This document shows positions 1-25,356 of a DNA stretch of 43,638 bases, one piece after another. The stretch covers positions 1 through 43,638 of IMG/VR virus record IMGVR_UViG_3300009034_001625; one strand, written 5' to 3'. How positions within the stretch are numbered: position 1 is the stretch's first letter; each line of letters opens with the position of its first letter. The notes beneath the pieces were generated by a model. That model saw only the letters and a list, made by a program, of their open reading frames with translations. It was not told the DNA's origin and searched no databases. This stretch comes from a virus. The position numbers and the translations under genes are program-made.

Positions 1-2
1 GC

Positions 3-494
3 GATAAAATCGGAGAGGCAGAATTGCATCTGTTCGATGATCGCCATGCGGCATGGTCTACACTGGCCAATCGACCAATAGAACCTGGAGGCGTAGACGT
101 CGCCGTAGAGCGAACACTAGTTGTGCCCACAACGACAGTAGATGAATACTGCAAAGAACAAGGTATCAATTGTGTGGGGCTACTCAAAGTGGACGCCGAA
201 GGTACAGAGTTGCCGATATTGTATGGAGCACGAGGACTGATGGAAAAGAGCCAAGTCTTGTGCTGTGTTTTTGAGTATGGACGAACGTGGTGGGATATGG
301 GATACACGCCTGACGAGATGGAAAAGTATTTGATAGAACAAAAGTTTGAGATCATGAACATTTTGCACGATCAGCCAGTATTTCCAGGTCGTGAGGGGCC
401 CAAACAATCAAAGTATGCTATCATGGTTGCGGCACACGAGAGTGTGGCCGATAGAGTAAAAGGTATCATTCAAGCCGTGGCGAGGTGGGGCTGA
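3..494 (+). CDS. FkbM-family methyltransferase, C-terminal part (5' end outside window)
   Basis: The frame is open from the first bases, so the start lies left of the window; about 163 residues are visible. The stretch GLLKVDAEGTELPILYGA is the conserved (V/I)D-x-EG-x-E-x-x-x-L-x-G-A signature of FkbM-type SAM-dependent methyltransferases, and a W/Y-rich segment follows as usual in that family. Such enzymes usually O-methylate sugars or polyketides. Here it heads a row of glycosyltransferases, so methylation of a glycan on the virion or host surface is the natural inference. The stop TGA overlaps the next ATG by one base, indicating one operon. Confidence 0.8.
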   Translation, partial: DKIGEAELHLFDDRHAAWSTLANRPIEPGGVDVAVERTLVVPTTTVDEYCKEQGINCVGLLKVDAEGTELPILYGARGLMEKSQVLCCVFEYGRTWWDMGYTPDEMEKYLIEQKFEIMNILHDQPVFPGREGPKQSKYAIMVAAHESVADRVKGIIQAVARWG

Positions 495-1204
495 TGCAAA
501 TTGTGGTGATGACTAGCGATCAATGTGCAGCTAATGTATTCCTTATTTTTGCCAAGGCGTTCCACCACCATTGGCCTGATTGTCCTTGGCCGATCGTAGC
601 CGTAGGCGAAACGGTCTCAGCGACTGATTTTCCAACGACGTTGCAGGGCATAAGTCCTCCAGAGTTGACAGTTGTGGATAGATTGGGTCGATATCTTGGC
701 ACATACGGTGGCGAGACGATCATGGTGTTGTTAGACGATCAAATATTTTATGCTCACCCAATAAATACCCCAGTTCTGAAGCGCGCACATCAGGTTTTGC
801 TCGACGATAAAAGCATTGGTGCGACGTTGCTCAGCAGCAACCGCGAACCAGATAAATTTTATGATGGTTTTCTGGGTGAGTTTGTCGGCGTGAGTAGACT
901 GTCAATTTTTGACGTGGGTTTATGGCGCACGCCAGCCCTACGCCGATGGATAGAAAAACGGACGTGGCCTCGTGTACTGGGCACGTATCATTCACCGTTA
1001 GTCTATGTCGATTTAATAACGAGCGGGATGGTATCTGGGGCAGGCATCGTCGGCCTGGAGGCACATCATTCCGTAGTGTTAGAATTGATGGACGAACTAG
1101 TCCATTTGTTTGGCATCAAAGAGATAGCAGATCTGAAAATCCAGGATTCGCCCGATGTTAGGCGGACACTGGCCGATTTAATAGAAAGGTATGGGACAAC
1201 GTGA
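494..1204 (+). CDS. putative glycosyltransferase-like protein
   Basis: A 236-residue protein starting at the ATG that shares one base with the upstream stop; a GTG at 485 is in frame but less likely. The N-terminus (QIVVMTSDQ, then a W-P-D-C-P-W-P segment) and the hydrophobic strand ending in LLDDQIF (residues 79-85) resemble the GT-A fold, where an acidic pair after a hydrophobic strand binds the nucleotide-sugar metal. No family was recognised with certainty. It lies between a methyltransferase and another glycosyltransferase, which supports the role. The stop overlaps the next GTG start by four bases (GTGA). Confidence 0.65.
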   Translation: MQIVVMTSDQCAANVFLIFAKAFHHHWPDCPWPIVAVGETVSATDFPTTLQGISPPELTVVDRLGRYLGTYGGETIMVLLDDQIFYAHPINTPVLKRAHQVLLDDKSIGATLLSSNREPDKFYDGFLGEFVGVSRLSIFDVGLWRTPALRRWIEKRTWPRVLGTYHSPLVYVDLITSGMVSGAGIVGLEAHHSVVLELMDELVHLFGIKEIADLKIQDSPDVRRTLADLIERYGTT

Positions 1205-1812
1205 GTGAATGGATTCAACTGTTGGCCCCTAAATGGGTGGGCCGGAAACGACACGAGAAAGGCGAGTGGATTAAGGTGGGTAATCAAATAGCCGAGAAAT
1301 GGATAGCTGAGGGTGCAGCGCGTTATGGTAGACTGGCACAGGTTCAATCAACCCCTGCCCAACTGAGGACATCGAGAATGATGGGTATGCCATCTGTGCC
1401 TCTGTTCGGGACCAAAACACGAAAACTTGTCGAACGAGCTAAATCGGCGTCAATACATGCAGGACTCAAAGTGGCGTTTGGGATGATAGTGTTCAATGGA
1501 GACCACATCCTATCGGGCATACTAGAATCAGTATATCCCTGGGCGTCACAGATATGCATCGCCGAGGGGCCGACCAAATTTCATGCTGACCGGTTGAAAG
1601 TTTCAACCTCGACCGATAAGACAGTGGAAATCATCCGGAACTTTCCCGACCCAGAAGAGAAAATTTCGTTGGTACAGGGTGCGTGGCCTAATAAACTGGC
1701 GATGTGCAATGCATGGATTAAATCAGTGAGGCCGGATACAGATTACGTGTGGCAGATCGATATGACGAAATGTACAAACAAGAAAATATCCAGCAGGTGT
1801 TGTCATTGTTAG
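1201..1812 (+). CDS. glycosyltransferase, N-terminal half (frameshifted)
   Basis: This frame encodes a 40-residue N-terminal mini-domain (residues 4-45, with G-E-W-x-x-V and an A-x-x-W-I-x-x-G-A ending), a linker, then a GT-A type domain from about residue 88 up to DYVWQID (residues 181-187). After that the frame turns into unrelated, Cys-rich sequence and stops. The frame starting at 1749 continues the domain with DEMYKQEN, so a one-base loss near 1761 splits a glycosyltransferase whose D-x-D-E metal site falls exactly at the break. The mini-domain recurs in the proteins at 5774 and 9450. GTG start, overlapping the upstream stop. Confidence 0.75.
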   Translation: MSEWIQLLAPKWVGRKRHEKGEWIKVGNQIAEKWIAEGAARYGRLAQVQSTPAQLRTSRMMGMPSVPLFGTKTRKLVERAKSASIHAGLKVAFGMIVFNGDHILSGILESVYPWASQICIAEGPTKFHADRLKVSTSTDKTVEIIRNFPDPEEKISLVQGAWPNKLAMCNAWIKSVRPDTDYVWQIDMTKCTNKKISSRCCHC

Positions 1813-2360
1813 GACCGGAGGGTTATGACTCAGTGGCATTTCGATTCCGTTCGTTCTATGGCGGTTTCGAACGGCACATGATAGGTTGGGAAGAGGCACA
1901 GGAAACACACAGAATTCAGCGATTTTATCCAGGTGCGGTATGGGCTAGCCATCGGCCCCCAACTATCAATGCGCCTGACGGTAAACCGTGGCGGACTAAG
2001 AATCACCTTACCCATTGGGAAATAGACGCGGCGGTGGGAATCAGAATATTCCACTATTCGTTCGTATTCCCCAGTCAAGTAAAGATGAAGTATTTGTATT
2101 ACAATGACTTGACTAAAGGCAACATGATTAGCGATGGATATAAGTCCATCTATCTTCCCTGGACACGTGGTGACGACCAGAAAAAGGCTGAGATCGAGCG
2201 AAAGTTTAAAGGCGTCCATCACCTGACGCGCGGCCCAGGCGGGCAGTGTGTGTGTCACACAGTAAAATATTATGGTAAACATCCACAATGGATTGAACAA
2301 CACCGTCAAGAACTGGAAGTACGGATAAAGGATGAACTCAGGGCAGCAAATGGTAACTAA
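1749..2360 (+). CDS. glycosyltransferase, C-terminal half (frameshifted)
   Basis: Continuation of the 1201 gene in the -1 frame; the first plausible residues are YDEMYKQENIQQVLSLL, the usual helix after the D-x-D of GT-A enzymes. Following segments (SVAFRFRSFYGGFERHM, then an H-Y-S-F strand) are typical of transferases that act on glycoproteins or polysaccharides, although the acceptor cannot be told. No ribosome binding site precedes the GTG at 1749, so separate translation is doubtful. The 3' end overlaps the next gene by about 29 bases. Confidence 0.7.
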   Translation: MADRYDEMYKQENIQQVLSLLGPEGYDSVAFRFRSFYGGFERHMIGWEEAQETHRIQRFYPGAVWASHRPPTINAPDGKPWRTKNHLTHWEIDAAVGIRIFHYSFVFPSQVKMKYLYYNDLTKGNMISDGYKSIYLPWTRGDDQKKAEIERKFKGVHHLTRGPGGQCVCHTVKYYGKHPQWIEQHRQELEVRIKDELRAANGN

Positions 2361-3000
2361 TGGTTATCGAAACGCCAGGCTCGGGCAGCGTATGGCAAAC
2401 GCTGTAATCCGGGAGATAACGAGCATCAAACAAGCCGGCGTCCAGCGAACACATCAAATAGTGCTAGAAGCAATCAAAATGATACTAAATTGCGATCATC
2501 TGAGCTTGCTGGACGTAGGCTGTGGAGTAGGGTTGTACCGTGAGGTACTGAGACAATACGACTCGTTCGTTGATTACGAAGGCGCAGACTTTAATGAGAC
2601 TATGATCGCTCGTGCACAAGGGCTATTTCCTGAGACAAAGTTTCATCTCGCCGATGCCCGTCTTTTGCCTTTTGACGATGACAGTTATGACGTGGTTTTG
2701 GCTGGCGCGATTTTAGAACATATCAAGGAATGGCGGCGGGCGTTGGACGAAATCTGCCGAGTGGCAGAGAAACATTTAATCTTGCATCGGACGCTATTAA
2801 TAGCGCCCGACGAACCAACGAGAACGGAAAGGCAGATAGCGTTCGGTGAGGCAATATGGCGTGTATACATCGACAAGCGAGAATTAATTCATTGCCTGGC
2901 GCGCCGCAATTTCGTTGTCAGCGATGAGTGGTTCGTTGCCAAAGACGGGAACAAAGGCGCACAATGGACATTTCTATGTAGGAGAACCAATGCAACATAA
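2332..3000 (+). CDS. class I SAM-dependent methyltransferase
   Basis: A 222-residue protein (216 if the ATG at 2350 is used). Motif I, LLDVGCGVG, lies near residue 60. A following acidic region (YEGADFNE), ADARLLPFDDDSYDVV and the LEHI post-motif complete a Methyltransf_11-like Rossmann domain. The substrate is not readable; position among glycosyltransferases suggests a sugar or lipid-linked intermediate. It overlaps the genes on both sides, so it is translationally coupled. Confidence 0.85.
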   Translation: MNSGQQMVTNGYRNARLGQRMANAVIREITSIKQAGVQRTHQIVLEAIKMILNCDHLSLLDVGCGVGLYREVLRQYDSFVDYEGADFNETMIARAQGLFPETKFHLADARLLPFDDDSYDVVLAGAILEHIKEWRRALDEICRVAEKHLILHRTLLIAPDEPTRTERQIAFGEAIWRVYIDKRELIHCLARRNFVVSDEWFVAKDGNKGAQWTFLCRRTNAT

Positions 3001-3883
3001 TATCGCCATGATAAGTGATTACGGATATCTCACACGGACCTTGTTACTCTATGAGTCTATTTGTCGTCACGAACCAACAGCCCACGTACACTTGTTAGCA
3101 TTAGACGATAAAACCTTTCATGTTGGCCAATCAATAGGGCAGAGCAATCTGACGGTTACTCCACTCAGTAAAGTGGAAACGGCTGAATTGACGGCCGCGC
3201 GTCAGGGCCGGAATTGGGTCGAATGGGTGTGGCTATTTCAACCGGCGTTTCCCTTACATCTGATGAAAAAGTATGATATCGGCCATATTTTCTGGATGGA
3301 TGGCGATATGTGGTTGTTTGACAGCCTCAAAGAGATGTTCGACGAGATAGGCAGTGCTGACGTGGCAGTCTCGCCGCACAGGTTCCCGCCACTCCGCGCA
3401 GGTAGCGTCAACACGGTAAGCATCTACAATGGCGGAGCGACATATTTTCGCAACACTGAACGGGGGCGTGCGTGCTGCCAGAAGTGGTTAGCTGATTGTA
3501 TCGAGTGGGACTATTGGTGGAGTCAGCCTAAACCAGGGCCGAAACGAGGGCAGAAAGGCGGCACACAAGGATATTTAGATTCCTGGCCAGAAGAATGGGG
3601 CGCGCACGTGGTGCAACATCTAGGATGCAACTTGGCACCGTGGAATCAGGATCATCCCAATTATCACTATGAATTCAACAATGGAAAAATTACGGTAAAT
3701 GGTCAGCCACTCCTTTTCTATCATTTTCAGGATTTCAAACCTGAACGAGATATGTTAGCTGGACCAGGGATCGTTCCCTTCGTGGTGGAGTATATTTATA
3801 GACCTTACGTCGTAGCCTATACGTTGAAACAAAAATTATGGCGACCGACAGAGAAGGCCAAGGATGTTAAACGGAAAGCGTGA
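2990..3883 (+). CDS. glycosyltransferase with D-G-D motif
   Basis: Start chosen at the ATG of MQHNIAMISDYG because GGAG lies just upstream (2981); a longer in-frame start at 2915 would be buried in the previous gene. The 297-residue protein has N-terminal strands for nucleotide binding, the metal-binding FWMDGDMW (DGD at residues 104-106) and a later YNGGATYFRN segment with an acceptor-side W-rich loop. This layout is close to GT8-like or phage sugar transferases. It is followed by 130 bases without a gene, so the first operon block may end here. Confidence 0.8.
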   Translation: MQHNIAMISDYGYLTRTLLLYESICRHEPTAHVHLLALDDKTFHVGQSIGQSNLTVTPLSKVETAELTAARQGRNWVEWVWLFQPAFPLHLMKKYDIGHIFWMDGDMWLFDSLKEMFDEIGSADVAVSPHRFPPLRAGSVNTVSIYNGGATYFRNTERGRACCQKWLADCIEWDYWWSQPKPGPKRGQKGGTQGYLDSWPEEWGAHVVQHLGCNLAPWNQDHPNYHYEFNNGKITVNGQPLLFYHFQDFKPERDMLAGPGIVPFVVEYIYRPYVVAYTLKQKLWRPTEKAKDVKRKA

Positions 3884-3924
3884 ATTGCGACTGATTTAGA
3901 GAGGGAATCAGATTTTTGATCTTC

Positions 3925-3955
3925 AGGGATACGGCCCGTATTGAGTCGTGTCCCT
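3925..3955 (+). terminator. hairpin between glycan genes
   Basis: Nine base pairs (3925-3933 with 3947-3955, one G-U) enclose a 13-base loop in the gap between two genes. No U-tract follows, so intrinsic termination is weak at best; it may be an RNA-processing or pausing hairpin. A second, 7-bp inverted repeat (ATGACAT / ATGTCAT, 3964-3970 and 3987-3993) lies directly downstream. Confidence 0.3.
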
Positions 3956-4015
3956 TCAAATTCATGACATCAGATGAGGCAAAGTTATGTCATCAATTAC
4001 TGAGTAAGGAAAATA

Positions 4016-5044
4016 ATGACAATGAATGATTGGCGAGATAAATCTGTCTTAGTAACCGGTGGTTGTTCGTTTATCGGATCGCATCTGGTGGATGCGCTAG
4101 TAGATCGGGGCGCGCGGGTGCGCATCGTAGATAATCTATCCAGTGGCCGGCTGGAAAATATCTCGCGTCATCTGACGGGAGAGACAGTCGAGTTTATCCA
4201 GGCTGACCTACGCGAGCCAGGGATAGCATGGGATGCAGCGCATGGAATTGAGTTGGTATTTCATCTCGCAGCGATTCATGGCGGGCGGGGATATGTAGAT
4301 TTGCATCAGGCGGGGCCGGCTATGAACTTGCTTATAGGCGGTTTAGTTTTTCGGGAAGCCTGCTTAGCGGGGATAGATAAGATAGTTTTCGCTTCGTCGG
4401 GATGTGTCTATCCGAATTTTTTACAGAGTAATCCCAATGAAGAAATTTATCTTACTGAGGATTTAGTAAAACCACCTTATGATGCCGACAATATGTATGG
4501 TTGGGCGAAATTGATGAACGAGCTAACACTAAGAGCTTATTGTAAAGAATATGGGATAAAAGGTGCATCGTGTCGGTTGTTCACAGTCTATGGTCAGCGC
4601 GGAGTAGAGAACCATGCAGTAACCGCGTTCATCGCCCGCGCCTTCGTCAAACAAGACCCATTCGAAGTGTGGGGCGATGGTACACAGGTGCGCAATTGGA
4701 CACACGTATCTGATATCGTGCGCGGAATGATCCTGGCAGCAGAGAGAATAGACGACGGATCGGCAGTAAATCTGGGCACGACAGAACGGATCACAGTGCG
4801 CGCCGCAGTGGAAGAGGTATTGCGGTACACTGGGCATAAGGCAGAGTTAAAATTCTTGCCTAATATGCCGGTGGGTCCGGTCAATCGGGTGGCCGACAAC
4901 CGACTGGCAGAAGATCTGCTGGGTTGGGAACCCAGAGTACAGTTTGTTGATGGACTTCACGACATGATCGACTGGTACTTTACCACAAAGGATCGCGAAC
5001 AGGTCAAAATGGTGCTGAAGAGTGGAAGACTGACAGAGAGATAA
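4016..5044 (+). CDS. NAD-dependent nucleotide-sugar epimerase/dehydratase
   Basis: A 342-residue extended short-chain dehydrogenase. The dinucleotide-binding VLVTGGCSFIGSH lies at residues 11-23, the catalytic serine region FASSGCVY at 124-131 and the Y-x-x-x-K pair at Y160 and K164. A C-terminal RNWTHVSDIVRG matches UDP-glucose 4-epimerase, GDP-mannose epimerase and related enzymes. It probably makes or interconverts the activated sugar used by the neighbouring transferases. Start supported by AAGGA seven bases upstream. The stop TAA shares one base with the next ATG. Confidence 0.9.
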   Translation: MTMNDWRDKSVLVTGGCSFIGSHLVDALVDRGARVRIVDNLSSGRLENISRHLTGETVEFIQADLREPGIAWDAAHGIELVFHLAAIHGGRGYVDLHQAGPAMNLLIGGLVFREACLAGIDKIVFASSGCVYPNFLQSNPNEEIYLTEDLVKPPYDADNMYGWAKLMNELTLRAYCKEYGIKGASCRLFTVYGQRGVENHAVTAFIARAFVKQDPFEVWGDGTQVRNWTHVSDIVRGMILAAERIDDGSAVNLGTTERITVRAAVEEVLRYTGHKAELKFLPNMPVGPVNRVADNRLAEDLLGWEPRVQFVDGLHDMIDWYFTTKDREQVKMVLKSGRLTER

Positions 5045-5796
5045 TGAAGCTGGTTCTCATCTGCACACCAACGTGGAATAAGGCTCACTTTCTACGAAAT
5101 ACGTTATATAGCCTCCAGGTGACGGCTGATAAAGAATTATACCGGCACGTCGTGGTCATCAATGGTGGCAACGATGATACCAAACGAGTATGCCGTGATT
5201 ATGGTCTAGAGTGGATTCATAACCTGGATAATGTCGGCATAGCACAATCGTTGAATCAGTGCCTGGCATTACTCATGCCAGGGCAACGGTTCATGAAATT
5301 GGACGACGATCTGACATTTTTTGACACAGGTTGGCTTGAGGCAATGTTACAAATACTGGACAATAACGAGGGTATTGGTGGCGTGGCCGTGCCGAGACTG
5401 GGACGTGAGGCCGATCAGTTGTGCAAGTCAATTGATGCAAAGTCAGAGCCATGGGTTGTAGATTCAGGAGAACTATGGTGGACGAATTGCGCATTATATC
5501 GCTGGAAGGCAATACAGGCATTGGGAAGCTTTTGGCAGCCAGGACTGTACGGCTACGAGGACATACTGACCGGAGTGCGACTGCGAAAGTTGGGCTGGCG
5601 AACGGTGTACCTGGCATCATACCGTGTGCGGCATGAAGGAAGCTGGAAAGGAAAGCGCGAGACTAGGGAATATAGGGAATGGAAAGCAACGACGCGAACG
5701 AGAAACATCCAGCCGATCATAGCACAATTCAAGAGTGGGGCGCGTAAGGCATATATACCACTGGAGACAACGAATGTGGGTACGGTTCAAAGATAA
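5044..5796 (+). CDS. GT2-family glycosyltransferase
   Basis: A 250-residue protein with the GT2 start VLICTPTWNKAHFL, the N-V-G-I-A-Q-S-L-N helix, the metal site MKLDDDL (DDD at residues 87-89) and the acceptor-side YGYEDILTGVRLRKLGW. These are the expected motifs, in order, of an inverting GT-A enzyme. It transfers a sugar from a nucleotide donor; the acceptor is unknown. It overlaps the epimerase by one base and the next gene by 23 bases. Confidence 0.88.
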   Translation: MKLVLICTPTWNKAHFLRNTLYSLQVTADKELYRHVVVINGGNDDTKRVCRDYGLEWIHNLDNVGIAQSLNQCLALLMPGQRFMKLDDDLTFFDTGWLEAMLQILDNNEGIGGVAVPRLGREADQLCKSIDAKSEPWVVDSGELWWTNCALYRWKAIQALGSFWQPGLYGYEDILTGVRLRKLGWRTVYLASYRVRHEGSWKGKRETREYREWKATTRTRNIQPIIAQFKSGARKAYIPLETTNVGTVQR

Positions 5797-6334
5797 AAAG
5801 ATGATAGACGGCAGAACTTATTATGCTGGAGATTGGGCGGACGTTGAGAACGCATTGGCCCGACAGTGGATCGTCTCAGGACTGGTGGTGGTGGCTAATC
5901 TAGAGAAGGCAATGCCAATTGGTGGAGAAGCGGGGATAGTAGTAATAGGGAATATAGATAAAGCAAAACAGTTACGAAAATTCTATCCCAAACTAAAGAT
6001 TACGACCAGCGAATGGTTGGCATTGTCCTATGAGCGAACTTTGATATGGAGACCAAACTTTCACTTCAAAACCGAATTATTGGCAACAGGATTTGATTTA
6101 CTGGAAAGGTGGTCTGTGGCGGCACCTCTCGCCACCGGTGATGACCCTACAGTTATAACCTACGATACAAACCTAATGTTCATTGACCGCAAACCAGACA
6201 CATTGAGACTAATTGAGGAAACATTATCGAAAATGGAAAATGAAATGGATGAACGAACAGCGTTCAATAAAACATTGCGAGAAATTGGAATCACGGCACT
6301 GGGGCTGCCTGAGGTCTGGATTCGCGGCCCGTGA
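5774..6334 (+). CDS. hypothetical protein with shared N-terminal mini-domain
   Basis: Start at the ATG of MWVRFKDKKMIDG because GGAG lies 8 bases upstream; a longer frame from 5735 is inside the previous gene. Residues 1-40 (Y-x-A-G-D-W-x-x-V, then A-x-x-W-I-x-x-G-L) match the mini-domain of the 1201 glycosyltransferase and the 9450 protein. The remaining 145 residues are not recognised. As the last gene before the connector module, it may link glycan enzymes to the virion. It ends 12 bases before the next ATG. Confidence 0.75.
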   Translation: MWVRFKDKKMIDGRTYYAGDWADVENALARQWIVSGLVVVANLEKAMPIGGEAGIVVIGNIDKAKQLRKFYPKLKITTSEWLALSYERTLIWRPNFHFKTELLATGFDLLERWSVAAPLATGDDPTVITYDTNLMFIDRKPDTLRLIEETLSKMENEMDERTAFNKTLREIGITALGLPEVWIRGP

Positions 6335-6346
6335 AAGGAGAGTAAC

Positions 6347-7795
6347 ATGACCGATCTGGTGTTGACACAAGGTGAAGGCGTGCCGGCTTCAATGCGGACA
6401 AGATATAAGGATATGGAAGACGGAACACACGCGATCGTGATTTTTGACGGCAGCGTTGAACTCGCAGGTGGCACTGAAAGTGTGGTCGTCATCTCTGTGC
6501 CGACCGACCCGTTCGGGACTAACGCCGACGATATGGTCGATGCTGGAGACGCTGGCAGTATCCAGGCCAAATTGCGCCGGCTGACTGCTGATTTAGGAAT
6601 CGCTACGGTCACACTCGGCGATGTCAAGACCATACTGGAAGTCCTCGGAGACGTGACCGAGGATAACGAGATACGAGTGGACATTATCGCGCCTCTACCT
6701 GCCGGAGATAACACCTTGGGTGAGATCGGCATAACCGATCTAGACAGTGGGCATGATTTGTATATCGGTCGCGATGGCTCGGCCCAAGTCGGCTTGAAGG
6801 AAACCATATTGGACAAGTGTGAGTCCCTCGCAGGCTGGACGGGCTCAACTGACGTAACCAATTTGACACTCAGCACAGATCATAGAGGTTGTGGTGAATA
6901 TAGCATCCAATTCGATAAATCTGGCACCACGCAGGCGTTCGCGCTGTTGCAAAAGGTGCCAGACGACCTGTCTGTTGATGCGAGAGGTCATTTGACACAC
7001 AGTTACATAAACTATTACTTGTATTTGTCGAAGCTGACCGGTATAACAACAGTGTATTTCGCGCTGGGCACGGATCCGAATAATTATTGGTATTGGCAGA
7101 CACCGGTGGATGAGTTGCAGGTTGGTTGGAATCATCTACACCATCCACTCAGTGGCATAGATGGGGTAGAGGGAGACGGGTGTAATCTTTCCAATGTTGA
7201 ATGGATCGCACTCTACGTTGGGTTTTGGGGACCGAACACTACATTGAGTAACATTCGATTGGACGACGTGCGACTGATCCGGACGATGGGTGTCAACGTA
7301 AGTGACCCTCACGCCAAGGGATACGCGACTGTGGTCAGGGTATCCGACGACGTGCGGCGAATACCAGTCGTACCAGTTATCTCGGCTGGGACTGCCTATG
7401 CCAGCGGCGATGCTCTTGGGGGAAAGCTAATGTTCGGCGACGCCGTCCGGCAAGACATAAAAACAGGCAGGATAACCAAAGTTGTCGTGATAGATAATGC
7501 CAAGCAATTAGCACCTCTTGATTTAGTGTTGTTTGATCGAACGTTCACATCGGCGGCGGATAATGCGCCATTCGATCCAACTGACGCCGACATGCAAAAC
7601 TGCATAGGGCATCTGAGTGTGGCGGCTGCCGATTATGCCAGTTTCGTGAATAATAGTATAGCAACTGTGGATAACATCAGTTTTGGATACACACTGGACG
7701 GAACGACACTCTACGGCCAGATGGTAGTTAGAGGAACGCCAACTTATGTGGCGACGGATGACCTGACGATCATCCTCACAGTAGAACGAGATTAG
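6347..7795 (+). CDS. phage virion protein with inserted carbohydrate-binding-like domain
   Basis: A 482-residue protein with a strong AAGGAG site 8 bases upstream. The C-terminal 135 residues (from AGTAYASGDALGGKLMF on, with DNAPFDPTDADM and GTTLYGQMVVRGTP) are typical of phage structural proteins found beside capsid and connector genes. Residues about 150-315 look like an inserted beta-sandwich of carbohydrate-binding type, starting ESLAGWTGS and ending RLDDVRLI. The N-terminus resembles other phage head-decoration proteins. It is probably exposed on the virion, where the sandwich could bind host glycans. Confidence 0.75.
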   Translation: MTDLVLTQGEGVPASMRTRYKDMEDGTHAIVIFDGSVELAGGTESVVVISVPTDPFGTNADDMVDAGDAGSIQAKLRRLTADLGIATVTLGDVKTILEVLGDVTEDNEIRVDIIAPLPAGDNTLGEIGITDLDSGHDLYIGRDGSAQVGLKETILDKCESLAGWTGSTDVTNLTLSTDHRGCGEYSIQFDKSGTTQAFALLQKVPDDLSVDARGHLTHSYINYYLYLSKLTGITTVYFALGTDPNNYWYWQTPVDELQVGWNHLHHPLSGIDGVEGDGCNLSNVEWIALYVGFWGPNTTLSNIRLDDVRLIRTMGVNVSDPHAKGYATVVRVSDDVRRIPVVPVISAGTAYASGDALGGKLMFGDAVRQDIKTGRITKVVVIDNAKQLAPLDLVLFDRTFTSAADNAPFDPTDADMQNCIGHLSVAAADYASFVNNSIATVDNISFGYTLDGTTLYGQMVVRGTPTYVATDDLTIILTVERD

Positions 7796-9803: not shown

Positions 9804-10268
9804 ATGCCACAAACAACGGGCAGCGTACCATTAGCATGTGGACTGCTGGAGGTATCTAGCGGTGCTTGCACGTCATGGACGGACATCGGCGGATCGAGTA
9901 GCGTTCTGGGCCCACCATCTCAGACGCGGATGAGCGGTGAGGCGTACACGTTCGACGGTGACATCGCGATCATCCAGGGCGGAAAGAAAGAACCGCTCGA
10001 ATTGGTATTCAGCATCGTCTATACTGAGACGGCTGGTGAGGCGTTTGAATACGTGCGGGCACTGTTTGATGCCGTAGGGTGTGGGGCACACATGTGCGTC
10101 CGGTGGTCACCGGACGGTGGCGATGTAGGCGACTTTCGATTCAGCACGAATCTGGGCATATTAACGAGTTTCACCTACCCGCCGATGGATGCAGGCGCGG
10201 GCGGGCCGATCATGGCCGGATTCACGCTGAAAGTGGCCGAGATCGTGATAACGACTATCACATCATAG
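9804..10268 (+). CDS. major tail (tube) protein, putative
   Basis: A 154-residue beta-rich protein with a strong AAGGAGG site, encoded just before the two-frame tail assembly chaperone and the tape measure, the standard place for the tail tube protein. Strands such as RMSGEAYTFDGDIAI and LELVFSIVYTE, with a C-terminal AGFTLKVAEIVI, fit the tube fold. No diagnostic motif was seen, so the call depends mostly on gene order. Confidence 0.72.
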   Translation: MPQTTGSVPLACGLLEVSSGACTSWTDIGGSSSVLGPPSQTRMSGEAYTFDGDIAIIQGGKKEPLELVFSIVYTETAGEAFEYVRALFDAVGCGAHMCVRWSPDGGDVGDFRFSTNLGILTSFTYPPMDAGAGGPIMAGFTLKVAEIVITTITS

Positions 10269-10282
10269 TAAAGGAAAAAAGT

Positions 10283-10669
10283 ATGCCAGAACGCAAAGCC
10301 GGGCGGCGAGTGCCGACGCCGGACACTCAAGGGCCAAACTCGTGGATTCTGTTGCGATCAATGACGGTGGGCGAAGTGATCGGATTGCAAAAGGAACGTG
10401 AGCAAACGCTGGCCAAAGAAAAGTGGTGGCAGCGGTTGTTCAATCGGTTCAAGAGACGAGAGACTAGATCGCAATCTGAAATCTATCAGGCGTTCACTCG
10501 CCGTGTGATAGGATATGTCGCCGATTGGAATTGGGTAGATGACACTGGGCAATCGTTGCCCAATCCGCGAGAGCATCCTGAAGTCGTGGAACTGCTGACG
10601 GATACTGAGCTAAACGAATTACTTGGTATCATCTATGGCGGCGGCGAAACCGACGACGTAAAAAACTGA
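10283..10669 (+). CDS. tail assembly chaperone, short (unshifted) form
   Basis: A 128-residue charged, largely helical protein starting at the ATG with AAGGA upstream. It is the G-type product of the chaperone pair that lies between tail tube and tape measure in siphoviruses. It ends D-D-V-K-N-stop, and the last two sense codons AAA AAC belong to the slippery heptamer A-AAA-AAC. Chaperones of this kind coat the tape measure protein and recruit tube subunits. Confidence 0.85.
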   Translation: MPERKAGRRVPTPDTQGPNSWILLRSMTVGEVIGLQKEREQTLAKEKWWQRLFNRFKRRETRSQSEIYQAFTRRVIGYVADWNWVDDTGQSLPNPREHPEVVELLTDTELNELLGIIYGGGETDDVKN

Positions 10670-10857
10670 GAGAGCGGCTGGCCGTTTACCTGCATGTGGG
10701 AACCGGTCAGCCGCCGTGGGAATACGTGGTATTGAGGTTATGTCGGGACATATACCACTGCCGGCCATCAGAGTTATATGAAGAAAACTGGGCAGAGGTG
10801 CTGACTCATTTGGCGTGTCTGGATATTGAGGCGCAAGCGCGACAATTTCCAAGGTAG
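10283..10857 (+). CDS. tail assembly chaperone, -1 frameshift fusion (GT-type)
   Basis: A -1 slip on AAAAAAC (10660-10666) bypasses the TGA at 10667 and adds 63 residues beginning LRERLAVYLHVGTGQPPWEY and ending QARQFPR before TAG at 10855-10857. The fusion is 191 residues. The extension has no start codon or ribosome site of its own and fills the whole gap up to the tape measure ATG at 10861, exactly as in lambda G/GT and its many relatives. This is the one frame change in the window that looks programmed. Confidence 0.88.
10660..10714 (+). promoter_or_regulatory. programmed -1 ribosomal frameshift signal
   Basis: The slippery heptamer A-AAA-AAC is in phase with the 0 frame at 10660-10666. 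A 7-base spacer follows, then a GC-rich stem: 10674-10684 pairs with 10704-10714 (11 bp, one G-U), with a 19-base loop that could also make a pseudoknot. Heptamer, spacing and stem are all of the classic type. The 0-frame stop lies directly after the heptamer. Confidence 0.9.
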
Positions 10858-10860
10858 AAT

Positions 10861-13509
10861 ATGGCTAAACGGTATTTAGTCGAAGTCGTGATCGGTGCTA
10901 AGGACAAATTATCGTCCGTGCTGGAAAGCGCGCGCAAAGGCGCGCTAGAACGCTTTGGGCACAAGATAACCGACTTGGTTCAACAATTGCCACAGATGGC
11001 AGTTGAAATGGTCAAACTCGGCGCTGCTGTGGAACGGCAACAAGGCGCGCTTGATAGTCTGGCTGCGTCGGTTGGAACGTCAGGCTCGGCGATAGTCAGT
11101 GCGATTCAAAACGCGAGTAGTTTCACCATAGATCGCATGACGGCGATGGGTGCGGCGAGTAAGGCAATGATGCTGGACGTTGCGAAATCGCCGGAAGAGT
11201 TTGAGCGGCTGACAAAGGTCGCAGTGCGACTGGGTCAGGCGATGGGCCTGAACGCAGCGCGGTCAATAGATGACTTTGTGACAGCCGCCGGTCGCCAGAG
11301 CGTCATGATCGCTGACAACCTAGGTCTGACAGTCAAAGCCGGAGAAGCCTACGATACATATGCGCTAAAACTAGGCAAGACAGCCGAGGCATTGACCGCA
11401 GCAGAGAAAAAACAGGCGTTCCTGACCGCTATGTTGGATGCAGGCGAAATCAAGACGGCAGCTATGGGTAAGGCGACGGATAGCCTGGCGATGGATATTG
11501 AGAGGCTGGAGGCGAAATTCAAGGACGCCAAAGTTGCCTTGGGACTGTGGATGGCAGAGATAGCCATAGCCATCGTTCGCATGAACGAACTAGTTCCACT
11601 GACCGAAGAACTCCACGAGCAAATAATTGGAACCAGCGATTCATACGCCGAATATCGGAGGCAGATGGCGGAAACCAATGTACATCTTGAGAAAATGAAC
11701 CGTGGCACTGAGACCTTTAGTGATTTGTTGCCTGGGACTATAGAGAAAATTGAAGAGGAATCTGAAGCTCTAACCGAATTAGAGTTCGTGACACGTAAGC
11801 AAAACGAGATAACCCAGGATACGATCCGGGTGATGGAGGAAATGCGAGCCGGGACCTGGAGACAAATGCAGGCACTGGAGGATGCAAAGACGGCGACGTA
11901 TGAACTAACGGTGCCGCTGGAAGAGCTGCTGCAAATATCGCCGACCCTGGCTCAGGCCATGGATATGGTGGGCGAGGCTGCGGAACATGAGCGTGGTGAG
12001 ATGACACAGTTAGCGAGGGAGACGGAAGCAGCGGCACTGGCACAGGTAAATCTGGCAGAGAAGATGACCGACGTAACGGCCACGGAAGTTGCCAAAATTG
12101 CCATAGGCGAACTGCGCGAGGCGAGGGACGCAGACAGAATATCGACTGACGAGTATGTGGCAGCGGTGACGCGAATACAACTAGCCTATGGACTCGCGAC
12201 CGAGGAGGGCATCAGATTAGCCGGCAGCTTGAGCAGAATAACTGAGGAATTCGCCGAAGGGACATTAGGTGAATACGCGTTTGATGCATCGTTACAAGCG
12301 ATCATGGCCGACCTGCCACCGACGACCGCTGAGTTAGACGAAATGGCGAGGGCGGAGGACGAAGCGGCGAGGGAAGCCAATCGATTAGCAGAAGAAGCCT
12401 ATAACGCAGCGGCGGCCACAGGTGATGAATTCGCAGCTATGGTGGGTGATGCCACGGCAGAGACCGACATATTCGCATTGGCACTGTTTGAATCGGCCGA
12501 TGCAGCAGGAGCAGATGCTGAAATGCTAGCAAGCCTAGCAGGGACATTAGGTATCTACACTGATACTGAGATAGAAGCAGCATTGGCGACAATGGCCCTC
12601 CAAAATGCCATCGCAGCGTTGGGCGACGCGATAGTTGCTGGCGAGATGACGATGGAAGAAGCAATAGCCGGCATGAGAGAATTGATAGACACAATGCCCC
12701 AGGGCGCGGCTGCCTTTGAGCATACCGCTGGGGCAGTGCATCACGGCTCACAGGTAGATAGAGAAGCAGCCAAGGCCAAACGTGAGATGGAAAAAGCAAT
12801 GCGTGACGCGGCCAGGGCAGCCGAGGCTGAGGCCAGAGAATTGGAGCGGCTGGCAGCGTTGACGGGTGACTACCTCGTCAAGGCATTAGGAGATGCAGAA
12901 GAAGGCACAGACAAATGGAGTCTGGCATTATTTGAGGCGGCGGACGCGATAGGCATGGAAGCTGAACAGCTTGCGTTATTGGCCGGCGCCTTAGACCTGT
13001 ACACAGAAGAACAGGTGGAGGCAGCCTTAGCAGCAGCAGCCCTCGAGGTCAGAATAGACGAACTGGCAACTCTAATGGCCGAGGGAATGGGCATAGATGA
13101 AGCGATAGAGAAATTCAATGAATTTCGTGAGACGCTGGGTTTGTTTGAAGCAGAAGCAGCATTGGACATAGCTGGAATCACGGCGGAGATCGCCGCCCTA
13201 ACCACCCAGTACAATACCCTGTTGGCTGGCGGAGCTGCCCCCGGTACACTGGCTGCGTTGATGGCACAAATTGCAGCATTACAAGCAATGATTACACCGG
13301 CGCAGTTCGGATTCAGCGGTATGGTAGGGCCAGGATTCGGAGGGGCGCGAATGTTTCTGGCAGGTGAGAGAGGGCCAGAATTTGTGCAGATAATGCCAAC
13401 TGGAGGTGGGCGGGCGACGCACAACAATTTCAACATGACCGTGAACACGCGGGCAACGACCGCGAGCGTGAGAAGGGACTTTGAGACGATGCGGGCGTTG
13501 GTAGGATGA
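10861..13509 (+). CDS. tail tape measure protein
   Basis: An 882-residue, Ala/Glu-rich, helical protein, the longest in the window, placed right after the chaperone gene. Its N-terminus (AKDKLSSVLESARKG, MTAMGAASKAM) and C-terminal FLAGERGPEFVQIMPTGGGR are typical of siphovirus tape measures. Residues about 520-612 and 668-759 are two diverged copies of one ~92-residue unit (TGD..., LALFE-(S/A)-ADA, YT-(D/E)-x-E-(I/V)-EAALA). Tail length should be about 130 nm at the usual 1.5 angstrom per residue (estimate). Confidence 0.92.
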   Translation: MAKRYLVEVVIGAKDKLSSVLESARKGALERFGHKITDLVQQLPQMAVEMVKLGAAVERQQGALDSLAASVGTSGSAIVSAIQNASSFTIDRMTAMGAASKAMMLDVAKSPEEFERLTKVAVRLGQAMGLNAARSIDDFVTAAGRQSVMIADNLGLTVKAGEAYDTYALKLGKTAEALTAAEKKQAFLTAMLDAGEIKTAAMGKATDSLAMDIERLEAKFKDAKVALGLWMAEIAIAIVRMNELVPLTEELHEQIIGTSDSYAEYRRQMAETNVHLEKMNRGTETFSDLLPGTIEKIEEESEALTELEFVTRKQNEITQDTIRVMEEMRAGTWRQMQALEDAKTATYELTVPLEELLQISPTLAQAMDMVGEAAEHERGEMTQLARETEAAALAQVNLAEKMTDVTATEVAKIAIGELREARDADRISTDEYVAAVTRIQLAYGLATEEGIRLAGSLSRITEEFAEGTLGEYAFDASLQAIMADLPPTTAELDEMARAEDEAAREANRLAEEAYNAAAATGDEFAAMVGDATAETDIFALALFESADAAGADAEMLASLAGTLGIYTDTEIEAALATMALQNAIAALGDAIVAGEMTMEEAIAGMRELIDTMPQGAAAFEHTAGAVHHGSQVDREAAKAKREMEKAMRDAARAAEAEARELERLAALTGDYLVKALGDAEEGTDKWSLALFEAADAIGMEAEQLALLAGALDLYTEEQVEAALAAAALEVRIDELATLMAEGMGIDEAIEKFNEFRETLGLFEAEAALDIAGITAEIAALTTQYNTLLAGGAAPGTLAALMAQIAALQAMITPAQFGFSGMVGPGFGGARMFLAGERGPEFVQIMPTGGGRATHNNFNMTVNTRATTASVRRDFETMRALVG
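12418..13137 (+). repeat. internal duplication in tape measure gene
   Basis: Two related segments, 12418-12696 and 12862-13137, encode about 92 residues each with shared TGD, TD-x-(F/W)-x-LALFE, ADA and YT-x-x-E-(I/V)-EAALA positions. The 55 codons between them are charged and Ala-rich. Copy number of such units can set tail length. Confidence 0.6.
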
Positions 13510-24319: not shown

Positions 24320-24733
24320 TTAGAATTCCCTTTTCAAGATCGCTGACCTAAAATCCTTGTTATCCAGTCGCTTAAATAGGTAAGGTGATAGTTCAGCGTA
24401 GTTTTTGTTTACCCACAGGGCAAACTTTTTTCTTGGCTCTTTTGGCGCGTCAGCGAAGGCCAGTTCAACCTTATCGGTGATGTTGGTGATTCTTGCCTCT
24501 ATTTCGTCACGCCACGTGTAAATCTGCTCCAAGAATTCATCTGGTATACTTGCTATCACTTCATCAAATGAATTCAGAGCAATTGCCTCAAGTACTCGTT
24601 TAAAGCTAGCGTTTGTGACAAGTCTATGTATTTCTGTATACCTGTCCCTTTGATCTTGAACCGTTGTCCGTCTGCAAAGTATAATACCCATCCTTCTTTG
24701 GATGCGTCTAAGTTCTGAGCCAGCGACAAGCAA
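24320..24733 (-). CDS. T4 Rnl1-like RNA ligase, C-terminal domain (frameshifted)
   Basis: The informative part runs from about 24660 to 24320 and reads DRYTEIHRLVTNASFKRVLE and onward to a helical C-terminal domain with IPDEFLEQIYTW. In T4 Rnl1-like ligases motif V (here FKIKG in the 24574 frame) is followed by Y-x-x-(L/I)-H-R-(L/I)-V-T. Inserting one base at the GGG (plus-strand CCC 24646-24648) joins the two frames into one protein of about 345 residues. The residues encoded upstream of that in this frame are an artefact of the shift. Confidence 0.72.
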   Translation of the reverse strand: MLVAGSELRRIQRRMGIILCRRTTVQDQRDRYTEIHRLVTNASFKRVLEAIALNSFDEVIASIPDEFLEQIYTWRDEIEARITNITDKVELAFADAPKEPRKKFALWVNKNYAELSPYLFKRLDNKDFRSAILKREF

Positions 24734-25356
24734 TCATTAGTGTTCAGTTGATAGATTTTGGGAAGGAGAAAGTCATGTCTCACAGCGACTTCTTCAAGTT
24801 CGCCATACGGCAGATATGCGCCAGATTCAATGTGTCTGACTGCAAGCAAGATCAGTTCTTGCATATCGCCATAATCAACTACAATTCTATTATCAGGGTA
24901 GACAATTTCCCACAATGGGGTATAACCAATCGGAAAGTCGCCAAGGTTATGCCAAGACAACTGTTTAGTCGCCCACAATGCCTGCTCGCTCGTGAAACTT
25001 CCACGAGTAGCGACTTTCCAGGTGCCGTTGTGAAAGAAGCCGATACCCAAGCTGCCGTCTAGCTTCTCTGTCACTTCTCGTAATTGGGCATCAGTCGTTC
25101 TATCCCTTTCGCCCCAATTAAAGAACTTATCAAAGGGACGCGCAACCACGCTCCCGTTCTCAGAATTGAGAATCAGGCCACGACTGACACGCTCAAACCA
25201 GTTCCACCGATTCTCAAATTGGGCATGTTGGCTGTAATTGAACAATACAAGCCCGTCGTGATATACGGTACGCACGTCACCGTATTGTTTCCAGTTGGTA
25301 AACTTTTGCCTTACTAGTTTTGACAATTGTGATATGTTTTCAATCATTTCTGCCAT
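24574..25356 (-). CDS. T4 Rnl1-like RNA ligase, catalytic domain (frameshifted)
   Basis: A nucleotidyltransferase domain: motif I TEKLDGSLG with the adenylated Lys98, RGLILNSENG before it, motif IIIa LWEIVYPDNRIVVDYG, motif IV KEGWVLYF and motif V RFKIKG. The order is that of T4 RNA ligase 1 (which repairs host tRNA anticodon breaks). No polynucleotide kinase is seen nearby. After FKIKG the frame diverges; see the 24320 entry. Confidence 0.82.
   Translation of the reverse strand: MAEMIENISQLSKLVRQKFTNWKQYGDVRTVYHDGLVLFNYSQHAQFENRWNWFERVSRGLILNSENGSVVARPFDKFFNWGERDRTTDAQLREVTEKLDGSLGIGFFHNGTWKVATRGSFTSEQALWATKQLSWHNLGDFPIGYTPLWEIVYPDNRIVVDYGDMQELILLAVRHIESGAYLPYGELEEVAVRHDFLLPKIYQLNTNDCLSLAQNLDASKEGWVLYFADGQRFKIKGTGIQKYIDLSQTLALNEYLRQLL

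Follow-up and report, generated by a model that had tools for sequence, protein, structure and literature searches.

Evidence for a programmed -1 frameshift in the tail assembly chaperone gene of an uncultured phage family

RESULTS

Organization of the chaperone gene and its junction

The DNA analyzed here, referred to as the window, is the whole 43,638-nucleotide stretch of the IMG/VR virus record IMGVR_UViG_3300009034_001625. In its tail gene region, an open reading frame (ORF) with the features expected of a tail assembly chaperone is followed by an extension in the -1 frame and then by the gene for the tape measure protein. The features, all on the + strand, are as follows.

9804..10268, +: putative major tail protein, assigned by position and by conservation in relatives
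10270..10275, +: AAAGGA, a Shine-Dalgarno-like sequence for the short chaperone, 7 nt upstream of its ATG
10283..10669, +: predicted short tail assembly chaperone (G-like), 0 frame, 128 aa, ORF starting from the ATG at 10283
10660..10666, +: A_AAA_AAC slippery heptamer, in phase
10667..10669, +: TGA, the 0-frame stop adjoining the heptamer
10667..10673, +: spacer, 7 nt
10674..10684, +: 5' arm of the predicted stimulatory stem, GCGGCUGGCCG, from folding and covariation
10685..10703, +: loop, 19 nt, with no pseudoknot partner found in a loop-pairing test
10704..10714, +: 3' arm of the predicted stimulatory stem, CGGUCAGCCGC, from folding and covariation
10666..10857, +: -1-frame extension (T-like domain), 63 aa plus TAG, predicted from homologues and from phrog_9001 matches in relatives
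10861..13509, +: tail length tape measure protein, 882 aa (phrog_3779, E value of 2.2e-9)

The putative major tail protein gene sits between the gene for a tail-terminator-like protein and the chaperone gene, and its product had no family match in PHROG and Pfam profile searches. Both direct reading and a script showed that the 0 frame ends with GAC GAC GTA AAA AAC TGA, with a run of six A's. The -1 frame is closed by the TAG at 10855-10857, 3 nt upstream of the tape measure ATG at 10861. Joined to the 128-aa part, the extension would give a fusion of 191 aa, with ...TDDVKN-LRERLA... as the predicted residues around the junction. The original prediction had described an in-phase A-AAA-AAC, a 0-frame stop, a 7-nt spacer, and an 11-bp stem, together with a -1 frame open for 63 codons up to 3 nt before the tape measure ATG and a 191-residue fusion. 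All of these coordinates were confirmed when the sequence was reread.

Relatives of the chaperone in viral contigs

Neither half of the window's chaperone matched a PHROG or Pfam family, and tblastn searches among annotated phages gave no match for the chaperone, the tape measure protein, or two distant members of the family. We therefore sought relatives in viral contigs. A search of Rfam gave no match. On the apparent link to Chloroflexota named in the original prediction, two scans of genome collections for a host found no relative, and published work on tailed phages of Chloroflexota offered nothing pertinent to this gene. A near-identical contig of 71 kb came out of the first scan of viral contigs, together with a single diverged homologue (L002), which retained the heptamer, the stop, the 7-nt spacer, and the stem, with one compensatory change from G-C to U-A. 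For a wider set, viral contigs were scanned with the neighboring tail-terminator-like protein as the query, and an alignment of the fused chaperone, also used as a query, gave 34 loci. Since the search pattern was a peptide motif within the G part, the heptamer was not selected for. Removal of duplicates left 26 distinct loci, the window among them, in which a G part is accompanied by a -1-frame T part. The 25 further relatives had identities down to about 25%.

This collection bears on whether the window has a single continuous gene whose A-run was misread in sequencing or assembly, indels in homopolymers being a common artifact. The same junction with a 0-frame stop was present in 26 distinct contigs, and the near-identical 71-kb contig, perhaps not sampled independently, had an identical A-run of the same length. 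The probability of such an error is negligible.

Conservation of the frame, the slip site, and the stop

The T part was in the -1 frame in all 26 distinct loci. A slippery heptamer was found in phase in each of them: A_AAA_AAC in 21, as in the window, A_AAA_AAA in 4, and C_CCA_AAC in 1 (L048). As a control, the remaining long ORFs at these loci were scanned, and A_AAA_AAC was found in phase only twice in 60,548 codons (3.3e-5 per codon), which corresponds to a chance expectation of about 0.001 per 30-codon region. A stop codon adjoined the heptamer in 20 of the 26 loci, as TGA (11 loci), TAA (5 loci), or TAG (4 loci). Because all three stop codons are used at one site, it is the place of the stop that is kept while the codon varies. 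The adjoining stop may itself stimulate slippage. Downstream, the next ORF began between -26 and +15 nt from the end of the T part and was long wherever the contig allowed.

In one further locus, L032, the T part lay in the +1 frame rather than the -1 frame. There, nine A's are found at L032:6351-6363 (CAAAAAAAAACG TAA). Slippage by +1 or -2, slippage during transcription, or a base missing from the assembly could account for this state.

A Shine-Dalgarno stimulator upstream of the heptamer was considered and rejected. A GGAGG sequence was found 4 nt upstream of the heptamer in L017, L021, L023, L025, and L026, all from one subclade, where it also codes for a conserved Glu-Glu, and it was absent from the window.

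In addition, a distant tailed-phage contig shared a YHCRPSELYG motif in the -1 frame of a chaperone, with a CAAAAAC-type junction (L012:2878-3562, minus strand).

RNA structure downstream of the heptamer

When the window was folded, a 94-nt segment had a minimum free energy of -35.3 kcal/mol (z score of -2.0), and the best-stem score of its 11-bp stem was equaled by 0.5% of the shuffled sequences. Covariation was analyzed in an alignment of the eight loci whose frameshift region aligned well, corresponding to five distinct sequences. The stem was paired in 88.6% of the cells of this alignment, and four stem pairs were altered on both sides, accounting for 11 cells with a compensatory change. 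The covariation score was equaled by none of 500 shuffles, controls that do not remove the effect of shared ancestry. When the pairing partners were slid by 1 to 3 columns, the values became far lower.

Across the whole set, the stem following the heptamer was better than 95% of dinucleotide shuffles in 17 of 26 loci, and where the stem was clear, the spacer mostly measured 6 to 9 nt. By the same shuffle test, roughly one locus in three had a weak stem or none, L035, L036, L037, and L043 being examples. Some distant loci form stems from unrelated sequence, with 13 bp in L042 and L050 and 12 bp in L034.

A loop pseudoknot had been proposed as a point to check by RNA folding. The best pairing between the loop and the 3' sequence in the window was no better than that of shuffled sequences (P = 0.85), and none of 14 loci gave a value below 0.2. 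A longer-range or weak pseudoknot is possible. The frameshift signal is best described as a simple stem-loop, not a demonstrable pseudoknot.

The slip site and the stem together allow transcriptional slippage to be weighed, in which RNA polymerase would gain or lose an A on the A-run and thereby open the second frame. Transcriptional realignment on such A-runs is known from other genes, and runs of 8 or 9 A's are found in L043, L044, L046, and L032. However, the window has just six A's, and C_CCA_AAC in L048 is not a homopolymer. In-phase A_AAA_AAC, conserved in 21 of the 26 loci, is the pattern for tandem slippage, and in the alignable loci it is followed by the covarying stem. We consider transcriptional slippage very unlikely as the source of the second frame.

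Start codons within the -1 frame

According to the original prediction, the -1 frame has no start of its own. This was true for ATG and for any start preceded by a Shine-Dalgarno sequence, but GTG is found at 10696 and 10726 and TTG at 10732. The GTG at 10696 opens an ORF of 53 aa in the -1 frame; no Shine-Dalgarno-like sequence was found near it, and starting there would remove the initial 10 codons from the conserved domain.

These codons raise the possibility that two genes are present, the T part being translated alone from an internal GTG through reinitiation or translational coupling and without frameshifting. A precedent exists in Microbacterium cluster EA phages, for which a pair of chaperone ORFs has been reported with no frameshift apparent (PMC7302621). 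On the other hand, early starts in the -1 frame lacked a Shine-Dalgarno-like sequence in 23 of the 26 loci, and in 9 of the 26 the first part of that frame lacked any start codon. Moreover, the T domain is conserved in the 26 loci from the heptamer onward, with its conserved part starting right at the heptamer, and independent translation leaves the conservation of the heptamer and the stem unexplained. Finally, T is joined in frame to G in a relative described below (L015). Separate translation of the T part is therefore extremely improbable.

Protein evidence

With profile searches, the -1-frame domain matched the tail assembly chaperone family phrog_9001 in 9 of the 26 loci (best E value of 1.4e-9), the T domain of the window itself being below the threshold. 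The G part matched another tail assembly chaperone family, phrog_344, weakly and in 2 of 25 cases (0.007). Substitutions in the T part fell mostly at third positions of the -1 frame; between L017 and L026, for instance, the counts by codon position were 6/3/25.

An AlphaFold model of the T domain was all-helical, with a pLDDT of 91, and that of the G part had a pLDDT of 85. The best PDB match of the G model was the HK97 tail assembly chaperone 2ob9, a weak similarity at the edge of detection (Foldseek E value of 1.6; Z score of 3.7), and the Foldseek and VIA lists gave the G fold no clear place in any solved family.

A relative with two separate chaperone genes

The contigs L015 and L016 come from the same phage or from very near ones, and their tail-terminator-like protein is 72 to 73% identical to that of the window. 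Their chaperone region, shown here for L015, is organized in another way.

L015:6430-6948: fused G+T long chaperone gene with a GTG start (same in L016, L030, and L033)
L015:6950-7255: G-only short paralogue (same in L016, L030, and L033)
L015, starting at 7259: tape measure gene, downstream of the short paralogue

No in-phase slippery heptamer was found in either chaperone gene of L015. The ATG of the short gene is preceded by AGGAGG, a strong Shine-Dalgarno sequence, and the long gene has a weak start, a GTG without a clear Shine-Dalgarno sequence; the short form would therefore be favored. Since both forms are still present as separate genes, both products are apparently needed.

In a tree of the terminator protein, L015/L016 fell within a clade of frameshifting phages (support of 100/99), beside the window (88/85). 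A topology with the short and long genes of L015 constrained as sisters was not rejected in an AU test (P = 0.24), and a grouping of both L015 chaperones with the window's clade was close to rejection (P = 0.06). The L015 pair may thus have been acquired through recombination and not by a local duplication. On the chaperone tree, either duplication in place or the import of a ready-made pair may account for the change. Within this clade of uncultured siphophages, the L015/L016 lineage has probably given up the frameshift and makes the same two forms from separate genes, keeping their unequal dose. If so, this is a natural swap of recoding for a gene pair that preserves an unequal dose.

DISCUSSION

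In the lambda model, the short form of the chaperone binds the tape measure protein, and a rare long form brings in the major tail protein through its T part (PMC5009743). A short-to-long ratio of 30:1 matters in lambda, and frameshifted tail chaperones are widely conserved among tailed phages (PMC5009743; for the lambda G/GT work, Levin 1993 and Xu 2004, 2013, and 2014, reviewed there).

We conclude with high confidence from the comparative sequence evidence that the tail assembly chaperone of the window is of the lambda G/GT type and is made in two forms through a programmed -1 frameshift. The original prediction of such a frameshift is borne out by the T part lying in the -1 frame in 26 of 26 loci, the exact heptamer in 21 of them, and a stem that covaries. 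Its emphasis on the completeness of the signal as something special did not hold, as a complete signal is the normal state across the 26-locus family. Most ribosomes would halt at the TGA at 10667 and yield the 128-aa short chaperone, while a minority, on pausing at the stem (10674-10714), would slip by -1 on A_AAA_AAC and yield the 191-aa fusion. By analogy with lambda, the shared G part would coat the tape measure protein, the T extension would recruit the major tail subunit, and the ratio of short to long forms would govern orderly polymerization of the tail.

As with lambda G/GT, the coding region for a short chaperone and its -1-frameshifted long form immediately precedes the tape measure gene; in contrast to lambda, the window's chaperone has no detectable sequence similarity to annotated phages. 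The lambda slip site is of the G_GGA_AAG type, whereas the window has A_AAA_AAC with a stop directly adjoining and a covarying stem. The frame transition is of the same kind as that in the HK97-like frameshift cluster of GeneTack, for two members of which a frameshifting of 6 to 7% was measured (PMC3711429).

The two-gene solution of L015/L016 is not of a new kind, since T4-like phages have already been reported to have a short chaperone gene apart from a fused long one (Vladimirov, Gautam, and Davidson 2022, as cited in PMC10274946). The two cases are alike in having a short gene and a fused gene and no frameshift. Unlike in T4-like phages, L015/L016 lies within a frameshifting clade by the terminator tree, so that both states stand side by side, and the window itself would frameshift.

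The mechanism has long been known from lambda; what is new is a large uncultured phage family without annotated relatives in the phage records searched. The genes of this family can now be correctly annotated, with RNA covariation as evidence. With frameshift and separate-gene solutions in one family, it can also be asked why a set ratio of the two products matters.

Two other regions of the window were noted. Positions 1-6331 contain a series of genes for methyltransferases, glycosyltransferases, and nucleotide-sugar epimerases, immediately before the head-tail and tail genes. On the minus strand, 24574-25356 encodes a protein of the RNA ligase and tail-fibre-attachment type (phrog_562, 1e-55), whose nearest relatives are ligases of Arthrobacter and Streptomyces phages, with 36 to 45% identity.
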